Assembly (NCBI RefSeq): GCF_029490015.1
Contig: NZ_CP120468.1
Coordinates: 1,860,001-1,924,000, forward strand
Origin: Halobaculum limi
GTDB lineage: Archaea > Halobacteriota > Halobacteria > Halobacteriales > Haloferacaceae
DNA length: 64,000 nt
Direction of reading: 5' to 3'
Shown: in pieces, positions 6,492 to 8,665 of the stretch
How positions within the stretch are numbered: the first letter of the stretch is position 1
How the letters are laid out: the number at the start of each line of letters is the position of its first letter
Notes under the pieces: generated by a model
The model's input: only the letters and a program-made list of their open reading frames with translations
Told to the model about the DNA's origin: nothing
Database searches by the model: none
Made by a program: the position numbers and the translations under genes

Positions 6492-6499
6492 AGCGTGCT
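6492..6499. repeat. Target-site duplication, left copy
   Basis: AGCGTGCT, directly repeated at 8017-8024. The two copies abut the inverted repeats exactly, as expected for an 8-bp duplication made on insertion. Confidence 0.93.
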
Positions 6500-6516
6500 G
6501 GCTCTGTTGAAACCCT
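6500..6516. repeat. Terminal inverted repeat, left
   Basis: GGCTCTGTTGAAACCCT. It matches the reverse complement of the right end in 16 of 17 positions, differing only at the base after the AAA. Confidence 0.92.
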
Positions 6517-6646
6517 ATTGAGTCAACACTTCCATGCTGAGATCGTCATTAGGTAGGTGTGCATATTTTCTACAACTGGCTTATGAGCAAGTAGACGGAA
6601 TTTCGTCGGACTCCCACTTGCGAGTGTGCAGTCGATAAGGAGGTGT

Positions 6647-7072
6647 TCACCGGGTCTGTGCGACCGACTGACGCCAGTAGTAGCCGACGACCGGGCCGAG
6701 GACAACGATAGCACCGACCACGACCGCTGTGTTGATGAGGGCGTTCTCCGAAAGTTCGGTTGTGGCTCGGAGCAGGTCAGCGATCAGGGCTGTTACGAGA
6801 ATGACGAGTATCAGCAAGACCACCCCTCGTACTGAGTAGAGGCGGCTGTCTGATCCGAGGAGCGGCCGGTCACCACGAATCAAGCGAGGTATAACATCGA
6901 CTGCTGCGAAGACTCCAAGACTGAGTATCAGTGTAACCGCGACCCGCAGGTAGAGATGAAGGTCTGGCGCGAGTGCCGTGGTAGCGAGTACTCCGTTGGT
7001 GAGTCCATATAGAAGTAAGAAGGCGAGTGCACGGCCAGCATCGACCCATGTCTGCTCAGAGACCATACCCAT
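6647..7072 (-). CDS. Four-helix membrane protein, IS passenger gene
   Basis: A 141-residue protein with four predicted membrane helices, at about residues 14-34, 41-62, 80-101 and 111-133. Short charged loops separate them, the largest being RLIRGDRPLLGSDSR between helices 2 and 3. It has no transposase motif and no signal peptide beyond the first helix. It lies wholly inside the ends of the insertion sequence, downstream of and codirectional with the transposase, 70 bases away. It is therefore either a true passenger gene or host DNA trapped by an earlier event. The intact frame and sensible membrane topology suggest it is still expressed or only recently acquired. No family was recognised. 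Confidence 0.7.
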   Translation of the reverse strand: MGMVSEQTWVDAGRALAFLLLYGLTNGVLATTALAPDLHLYLRVAVTLILSLGVFAAVDVIPRLIRGDRPLLGSDSRLYSVRGVVLLILVILVTALIADLLRATTELSENALINTAVVVGAIVVLGPVVGYYWRQSVAQTR

Positions 7073-7084
7073 TATTGTCCATTT

Positions 7085-7100
7085 CAGGTAATAATACCTG
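7085..7100. promoter_or_regulatory. Small inverted repeat before the passenger gene
   Basis: CAGGTA-ATAA-TACCTG, a perfect 6-bp inverted repeat with a 4-base loop, 12 bases upstream of the passenger start and 42 bases beyond the transposase stop. It could be an operator for the passenger gene or a stem that limits read-through from the transposase. The sequence does not decide between these. Confidence 0.4.
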
Positions 7101-7142
7101 TTTACAGACTGTGGTGCTGCATCTAATCTCTACATCTAACGT

Positions 7143-7964
7143 TCAGAGTGTCTTGTCGATGTTGTGTGTGAGACTACCGACAACGAGTTCACGGAACTGC
7201 TTCCACCAGTATCGTGAGCGGACGAATGCGCCATATTTCCGTTTGAGACTGGAGTTCACCGTCTCATTCTGACTCCGTAGACCGTAGAGGTCGGCGTCCA
7301 GTCGAGCATTCCACGCCTTGTGGAGCGACGAAAATTCTCGGTGCTTGATGAGGGGACGAACACCAGCGTCACGGGCTAACGCGCGAACCTTCTGGTCGTC
7401 GTAACCCTTGTCACCGAGGAGGATTGCCACATTCTCGGCATTGCGCTTGATGAGCGACGGAGCGATCTGTGAGTCGTGTTTTCTGGTCGTCGTCACGTGG
7501 AGATCGAGGATAGCATTCGCTCTCGTGTCTACGAGCAGTGTCACTTTCAACTGCTGAATCGTCAGCTTCGTTCGCTTCGTGTAGTGTTTCGAGGCGTGAC
7601 TCCGGTCGAAGCCGGAAGCGTCGATCCCAACGACACCGTTAGTCGGGAGAAGCATGATCGAGAGGTTGAGCAGGACACGCCAGACTGCCATATCAAGCCG
7701 GTTGAACGCTTTACACAACGTTGAGGGCGACGGGAGTTCGTCTAGATTAATGGCTTTCCGAATGCGGGGCATCTCGATGAGTTCGTCGAGAAGCGTCCTG
7801 TAAGTCGTGTTCTTCCGAACTTTGAGACAGAGGAGAACGATGTGCTGGTGGAGTGTGTACCGGCGTTTGGAGAACTTCGATGAGTAGGGAGCGACAGCTC
7901 GGCGTGCCAAGTGGATCGCTTGCTCAACGAACCGGAGCAACCGCGATTTCGGGAGGGCTTCCAT
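7143..7964 (-). CDS. IS5-family DDE transposase
   Basis: A 273-residue transposase that cuts and moves the surrounding element. The three catalytic acids fit a DDE pattern: D115 in GIDASGFDR, D185 in LLGDKGYDD and E234 in RSQNETVNSS, spaced 69 and 48 residues apart. The DKGYDD and R-x-x-x-E-x-x-x-S surroundings are those of the IS5/IS4 superfamily. The N-terminal basic part with an HTH-like stretch (residues about 40-90) would bind the inverted repeats. The frame is intact from ATG at 7964 to the stop at 7143, and the start lies 52 bases inside the right end. It is less GC-rich than its neighbours, as expected for a mobile gene. Confidence 0.93.
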   Translation of the reverse strand: MEALPKSRLLRFVEQAIHLARRAVAPYSSKFSKRRYTLHQHIVLLCLKVRKNTTYRTLLDELIEMPRIRKAINLDELPSPSTLCKAFNRLDMAVWRVLLNLSIMLLPTNGVVGIDASGFDRSHASKHYTKRTKLTIQQLKVTLLVDTRANAILDLHVTTTRKHDSQIAPSLIKRNAENVAILLGDKGYDDQKVRALARDAGVRPLIKHREFSSLHKAWNARLDADLYGLRSQNETVNSSLKRKYGAFVRSRYWWKQFRELVVGSLTHNIDKTL

Positions 7965-7999
7965 CTGGTCAGATTACCGGGTGTACCTGTAACTCCCTG

Positions 8000-8016
8000 A
8001 GGATTTCAACAGAGCC
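8000..8016. repeat. Terminal inverted repeat, right
   Basis: Reverse complement reads GGCTCTGTTGAAATCCT, pairing with the left end with one mismatch. Confidence 0.92.
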
Positions 8017-8024
8017 AGCGTGCT
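8017..8024. repeat. Target-site duplication, right copy
   Basis: AGCGTGCT, identical to 6492-6499. Confidence 0.93.
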
Positions 8025-8165
8025 GTATATGTCCGAACAAAATTCTACCAGTTCGACGGGATTGAGACCGACCGCGACGAGGAACTTGTTCGCCCGGAAC
8101 GCCAGGCCACTCCCGTCTCCGTCGATCTTGACGGCTTCCGACAGATCGTCTCGGCGCTGGAGATA

Positions 8166-8475
8166 TCTTCGATCACGTTGTGGTTGATCACGGTATTCGC
8201 CGTGGCCGGCTCGGCGAGATGGAACCGCTCGTCGAGGCCCTTGGAGGTGACCTCAAAGTAATCGACACGGCGCGACGGTTCGTCGATGAGACCGCCGACG
8301 GTGGTTGAGGCGATCATTCCGACGCCTCCAGTTTCTCGGCGCGGTCGAGTTCGCGACGAACACGTTCGAGTTCGGGGGCGCTGCCGAACTCGACGAGCGG
8401 GGCTAAGGCGAGCGCTCGAACGAACGGATCGGTGCCGATGCGTGTGTGAGCTGGGCCGCCCGTGAGGAGCTGATC
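8166..8475 (-). pseudogene. Remnants of two coupled genes on the minus strand
   Basis: Two short coding remnants overlap by four bases (ATGA at 8314-8317), the usual mark of a real haloarchaeal gene pair. The first (8475 to 8314, 53 residues) ends DPFVRALALAPLVEFG...KLEASE and has no start codon, so its N-terminus is gone. The second begins at the ATG at 8317 with MIASTTVGGLIDEP and reads well for about 50 residues until about 8166, where it turns into the antisense of the plus-strand ORF fragment. The abrupt change of coding strand at about 8160-8166 marks a recombination junction. Neither product was recognised. The rest of 8476-8665 shows no convincing complete gene. Confidence 0.4.
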
Positions 8476-8665
8476 TCACTGGTGGCCCGCCTCGAGGTGG
8501 AGATGGATCTGGTCAGGGCGCACGTGCTTGCGATGGACACACCACCTGCGGCGCAGTTCGGCCGGCGAGTGCGGACGGCGAGCACCACCTGAGGTGATGC
8601 CGACCAGCCATCCGATCTCCGAAGGTGCATCGCCTGTCAGGCGACCATCCTTGGGAGAGCGGCCG

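Follow-up and report, generated by a model that had tools for sequence, protein, structure and literature searches.

What relation does a membrane-protein gene bear to the insertion sequence (IS) that encloses it at positions 6500-8016 of the window (the whole 64,000-nucleotide stretch of Halobaculum limi DNA analysed): is it a fixed part of that IS, a host gene trapped once, or one instance of something more general? Comparison with relatives of the transposase in other genomes leads us to a main reading, to which we assign a probability of roughly 0.85, that the element belongs to a haloarchaeal IS5-type group related to ISHla2 in which two short arms would surround an exchangeable payload.

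The window element and its passenger

The element is a complete IS of 1517 bp with intact ends and target-site duplication (TSD). The terminal repeats (GGCTCTGTTGAAACCCT and GGCTCTGTTGAAATCCT) match at 16 of 17 positions and the flanking 8-bp duplications at 8 of 8, confirming the length, the single mismatch and the exact duplication given in the preliminary description (Table 1). Chance is not a serious alternative for these ends and this duplication, because dozens of relatives show the same ends together with exact 8-bp duplications. A composite transposon was also considered and rejected, as the interval holds one transposase and one pair of ends and hence a single IS. A second 8-bp duplication directly past the transposase is absent, and no integrase gene was seen in the element. 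The IS is present as a single copy in its own genome. Within the genus no undisturbed empty site was found, the left flank aligning while the right flank is not syntenic; this right flank (8025-8660) has no clear intact gene and may be a remnant of an earlier rearrangement.

Table 1. Positions, in the window, of the element, its parts and the flanking duplications
Feature	Position	Strand	Remark
TSD AGCGTGCT, first copy	6492-6499		8/8 identical to second copy
Terminal inverted repeat, right end (cargo side)	6500-6516	+	16/17 against left end
Right arm, about 62 bp, 'A' type	6500-6562	+	kept in relatives whatever the cargo
Exchangeable cargo segment with one gene	6563-7125	-	different in nearly every relative
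Passenger gene	6647-7072	-	predicted four-helix membrane protein, 141 codons as read
AT-rich palindrome CAGGTAATAATACCTG	7085-7100		upstream of passenger gene
Conserved tail ACGTTAGATGTAGAGAT past transposase stop	7126-7142	-	inner edge of left arm
Transposase, IS5-family DDE	7143-7964	-	273 aa
Left arm, outer part	7965-8016	-	52 bp from inverted repeat to transposase ATG in nearly all relatives
Terminal inverted repeat, left end (transposase side)	8000-8016	-	
TSD AGCGTGCT, second copy	8017-8024		8/8 identical to first copy

The transposase passes the NCBIfam IS5 family model NF033579 (3.5e-63, 213.8 bits against a cut-off of 140) and matches Pfam DDE_Tnp_1 (PF01609, 2.3e-14). A single-ORF DDE transposase, inverted repeats and a TSD of fixed length, all of which the element has, place it in the IS5 family, and an 8-bp duplication is the rule for the ISH1 subgroup. 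The ISfinder isoform threshold is about 95% DNA/98% protein identity; at about 82% protein identity to the transposase of ISHla2 (IS5 family, Halorubrum lacusprofundi), the window element is not an ISHla2 isoform, and on sequence grounds the two are best regarded as one group but not one IS. Transposase relatives at E 1e-30 or better, close and distant pooled, were found in 294 of the 391 genomes surveyed.

As described previously, the passenger is an intact reading frame of 141 codons in the same direction as the transposase. Translation probably begins at the in-frame ATG at 7066, giving 139 aa, because conservation across all five homologues sets in at Met3, which is also the annotated start of the close homologue. 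The AlphaFold model has four main helices (mean pLDDT 80), in agreement with the earlier assignment as a four-helix membrane protein. Searches of the protein against Pfam and NCBIfam gave nothing above cut-off, and a fold search of the model in the PDB gave no match better than E 1.4. The nearest homologue, on a Halobaculum halophilum plasmid (L014), has 79% DNA identity over cargo positions 24-555 of 646, the match starting just past the conserved tail and stopping just short of the right arm; L014 may itself be what is left of a related element. The dN/dS of 0.24 against this homologue indicates that the passenger protein is under selection. Distant homologues lie outside this IS on three other haloarchaeal chromosomes (L096, 43%; L097, 35%; L015, 33%), that of L097 adjoining what look like ribosomal-protein genes, and the gene is rare overall (4 of 391 genomes). 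The small palindrome pointed out earlier at the head of the gene is real, but the 79%-identical homologue has a TTATAA box in its place. A functional hairpin at 7085-7100 was therefore rejected as not conserved, and given the TTATAA of the homologue the region is more likely a TATA-type promoter.

An exact TSD surrounds both genes, which supports the view that passenger and transposase moved as one unit; with its own transposase and an unrelated passenger within one exact TSD, the element qualifies as a transporter IS (tIS). To this extent the earlier reading of a genuine passenger inside the IS ends stands.

Exchange of payload among close relatives

A transposase scan of 84,980 species genomes returned 218 related places, of which the best 80 (78-94% identity) were kept; with 39 further loci added to these best 80 of 218, a total of 98 copies were delimited, a sample that favours close relatives. 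In nearly all of the approximately 80 close relatives, exactly 52 bp separate the left end from the transposase ATG, whereas the right end lies anywhere from 288 to 1934 bp past the stop. An exact 8-bp TSD links the left end to the distal right end in 33 of the 80 and in the window element (34 copies). Past the stop, conservation extends over some 16 bases; it returns some 62 bases short of the right end, and the DNA between differs. Alignment of the right ends of 55 copies gives ATTAGGTAGG as the inner motif of the right arm, and the tail at 7126-7142 resembles this motif in inverted orientation. Some right ends may be mis-assigned, since about half of the delimited copies have no matching TSD.

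The 98 delimited copies contain 73 unrelated cargos, with a different gene in nearly every lineage. Cargo is shared by 3 of 4 pairs whose transposases are 99% or more identical, by none of 5 pairs at 95-99% and by 1 of 54 at 90-95%, indicating that payload exchange outpaces transposase divergence. A single ancient passenger that had diverged past recognition was rejected, since cargos are unrelated even where transposases are 95-97% identical. None of the 98 delimited copies of the close group was found to be free of cargo. As a control, distant relatives (40-46% transposase identity) yielded 15 TSD-bounded copies of 925-940 bp without cargo, their right end lying 40-44 bp past the stop, with similar ends and the same 8-bp duplication. 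Two other relatives at 44-45% identity (L177 and L179; ends like GGCCTTGTTTAGAC) are longer, apparently by 650-820 bp of extra DNA, and in view of these, cargo-carrying may have arisen more than once.

These comparisons do not support the earlier suggestion that the membrane gene characterises this IS, since the slot is occupied by other genes in relatives that share its ends, and homologues of the gene also occur outside this IS. Likewise, the statement that passengers are uncommon in simple ISs holds for ISs generally but not for the group of the window element, in which they are nearly universal.

The payload also travels with the element. Identical cargos were found at sites with different duplications (L148/L149, L144/L145 and L142/L164), and a phosphatidylserine-decarboxylase-type gene is carried by a 1896-bp element that Natrinema hispanicum (L036) shares, at 98.6% identity, with a genome of another haloarchaeal family (G045), the match spanning the whole element and going no further. 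The architecture, target duplications, mobility as a unit and exchange of payload are thus directly visible in these copies. Two plasmids filed under different genera (L034 and L038; CP040680 and CP046867; Halostella pelagica and Salinibaculum litoreum) carry the same element at the same site, and are possibly shared or mislabelled.

The payload is usually one intact gene, in either orientation. Pfam confirmed cargos of SnoaL-like, alpha/beta hydrolase, PLP-dependent (threonine-synthase-like), O-methyltransferase, TrmO, phosphatidylserine decarboxylase, RibD_C, polyprenyl synthase, AI-2E transporter and maltose-acetyltransferase type, and many others are proteins of 55-200 aa with 2-5 predicted helices, or lipoproteins. 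Among the best cargo genes of 60-200 aa, 18 of 39 (46%) encode at least two hydrophobic helices, compared to 18 of 127 chromosomal genes (14%; Fisher p = 8e-5); this enrichment refers to the automated calls only, with one gene caller used on both sets, a crude helix count, and a codon-based caller that undercalls low-GC cargos (17 with missed genes). Reading 16 cargos by eye gave a hydrophobic best ORF in nearly all. The cargo of L167 resembles an archaeal type IV pilin-type gene and includes a proline/threonine-rich repeat. In the genus of the window, L008:1450-3711 is a 2262-bp element with variant ends GGCCTTGTTGAAA and a target duplication matching at 7 of 8 positions; its transposase is 71% identical, and its cargo consists of a gene for a 116-aa DUF3784-like membrane protein and an archaeal pilin-type gene.

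Transposase-less partners and a probable route of capture

Several relatives carry the same ends tens of times over in one genome. Transposase-less elements that combine such ends with exact 8-bp TSDs number at least 15, and nearly all of these hold one gene, often for a membrane protein of 50-90 residues, although some hold a few genes. They include L231 (2444 bp), L238 (462), L240 (341), L241 (373 and 477), L244 (369), L247 (329), L249 (385), L250 (417), L256 (2466) and L258 (1120), one element without a clear ORF (L242, 327 bp) and three more in L076, L079 and L080; in addition, L045 has an empty miniature of 125 bp. Their left arm is the autonomous left end joined to the post-stop tail with the transposase gene removed, which gives an architecture of arm, optional transposase, payload and arm. 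Mobile insertion cassettes (MICs) hold an ORF, and the relatives in L238, L240, L241, L244 and L250, with no transposase inside their ends, are of this kind, while the window element has an intact transposase and is not.

Two such elements lie in the window's own genome. L231 (G000 C2:203283-205726) has the exact duplication TCTTAGGC and a 349-aa soluble ORF, whereas L227 (C1:732833-733873), of 1041 bp with the same ends, has an imperfect (6/8) duplication. A family of two-helix passengers of about 63-64 aa, 36-72% identical, recurs in transposase-less elements of several genera (L241:826-1198, L079:1836-2233 and L227). Two genera (L233 and L261) share, at 99.9% identity, a transposase-less element of 1190 bp; its ends are similar, it encodes a 236-aa universal-stress-like protein and it has no matching duplication.

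Several observations bear on how cargo is acquired. Sites resembling the terminal repeat occur inside cargos 11 times, against 0.84 expected, and an internal end is kept in 9 of 73 cargos (about 12%), so that this evidence for a bypass route is direct for a minority of cargos. In L156, an apparent intermediate, the element's own right end lies 79 bp past the stop and carries one mutation; it is followed by a 153-aa membrane ORF and then by a second right end that shares its duplication with the left end. The cargo of L160 is 74-75% identical in DNA to a chromosomal polyprenyl-synthase gene found in most surveyed haloarchaea, and the homology begins at the same base (1183) in several genomes, that is, at a breakpoint. 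Finally, the cargos of L050 and L052 are 94% identical with a transposase dS of 0.75, and those of L066 and L090 have a dS of 0.14 against 0.43 for the transposases; cargos far more alike than their transposases imply that the two reassort.

These internal end remnants, the one intermediate and the one chromosomal donor support, at the level of sequence, capture by end bypass. According to this model, the left arm would comprise the outer terminal repeat, the transposase gene, optional in the family, and the conserved inner tail, and the right arm the terminal stretch of about 62 bp. The transposase would act on the paired ends, insert with an 8-bp stagger and move anything between the arms, in cis for the window element and in trans for the transposase-less relatives; both the cleavage chemistry and the action in trans are what we infer from the arrangement. 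Capture would occur when the near right end is bypassed or has decayed and a distal right end on the far side of a neighbouring gene takes its place, after which the internal end would be lost and payloads would reassort between elements by recombination. The window payload would then be a small membrane-protein gene of host origin that has its own promoter, is maintained by selection and most likely serves the host or the persistence of the element, not transposition itself.

Could an ordinary IS simply have trapped a neighbouring host gene once, with no system behind it? The rarity of the membrane gene and its homologues outside this IS are what such an event would leave, but all of the approximately 98 delimited close relatives have a filled slot while the distant relatives do not, and single-gene elements with the same ends exist without a transposase, making this very unlikely. 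The trapped host DNA that the preliminary description considered as an alternative is borne out in that host DNA appears to have been captured, but not as a one-off, an exchangeable gene being the rule in this IS group. It is scarcely credible that the right ends are mis-assigned altogether, the IS ending soon after the transposase and the distal repeats belonging to unrelated neighbouring elements. Some copies do have no TSD at the nearest distal end, and small elements with the same ends are common; however, exact 8-bp TSDs join distal and left ends in 34 close copies, the same cargos are found again at other sites flanked by other TSDs, and for the window element the exact TSD rules this explanation out.

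A payload required by the element is a less easily dismissed, though still doubtful, explanation. Small membrane proteins might act for the element itself, in persistence, addiction or membrane-linked regulation, and selection on the element would explain both the absence of cargo-free copies and the membrane-protein enrichment, a tentative account that also suits the shortest cargos (55-72 aa), which still encode two-helix proteins. Against it, roughly one cargo in four encodes a soluble enzyme or a regulator (SnoaL, TrmO, PLP enzyme, O-methyltransferase, acetyltransferase), which argues that there is no single required function, and cargo orientation is mixed. A dedicated, cassette-like recombination at the inverted motifs of GTTAGATA and GGTCAATA type that flank the cargo appears highly improbable. 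These motifs match better within a copy than between copies (5.43 vs 4.92 of 8; 0 of 2000 permutations), but the match tracks subgroup, so that shared ancestry explains it; moreover, the motif also forms the inner edge of both arms in transposase-less elements, which points to a candidate end-recognition site, and no recombinase gene was seen in the element. Returning to two arms around an exchangeable payload, we lean, with somewhat less assurance, towards the broader proposal of a haloarchaea-wide single-gene shuttle, in which an IS5-type transposase and short arms would routinely capture, exchange and spread single, mostly small membrane-protein, genes, with or without the transposase aboard.

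Relation to known systems

In its ends, as in its transposase, the window element resembles ISHla2. In the copies of Hrr. lacusprofundi (G120) the right end is found 319 bp beyond the stop, the transposase being followed by a 57-aa two-helix 'hypothetical' gene; this payload is unlike that of the window element, and ISHla2 is annotated as a plain IS. One of the relatives compared bears the ISHla2 annotation. Literature searches found no paper naming ISHla2. Searches with most subscription journals outside their scope likewise found no description of an archaeal IS5/ISHla2-like cargo system, and a report of one transposon passenger gene in Hrr. lacusprofundi (PMC10544981), which may or may not belong to the group of the window element, describes no system.

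ISs are usually seen as carrying a transposase alone, whereas this widespread haloarchaeal group is apparently always loaded, swaps its payload faster than the transposase diverges and seeds transposase-less gene cassettes. If the shuttle proposal is correct, it would give small membrane-protein genes a hitherto unrecognised means of spread among haloarchaea, and would explain some of the tiny 'hypothetical' genes next to IS5 transposases. It would also provide a natural series for the study of stepwise capture, from cargo-free relative through intermediate and loaded element to transposase-less cassette.

Pack-MULEs and other eukaryotic gene-capturing transposons place terminal repeats around host genes, mostly as gene fragments; the window group also encloses host genes in terminal repeats, but these are intact. 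The term tIS denotes IS copies with passenger genes unrelated to transposition (PMC3129680). Compared to these, the payload of the window group changes in almost every lineage and is usually one gene, small membrane proteins are over-represented among the cargos, and partners without a transposase exist alongside. MICs are IS-related, have no transposase gene of their own and can be activated by a cognate transposase (PMC3129680), a description that fits the transposase-less relatives, whereas the window element retains its transposase and is IS5-type and archaeal. The nearest precedent is the IS231 subgroup of IS4 in the Bacillus cereus group, which has a wide size range and various passengers in its extra DNA, a modularity said not yet to be known in other families (PMC2266710). 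IS231 belongs to another transposase family and another domain of life, and its extra DNA lies upstream of the transposase, in contrast with the downstream position in the window group. The shuttle, if real, would thus give an archaeal class, through capture by end bypass, a gene-cassette economy with modularity of the kind reported for bacterial IS231. Among passenger-carrying ISs, the window group is unusual in combining near-universal cargo with an archaeal host range, an IS5-type transposase and a richness in small membrane proteins.
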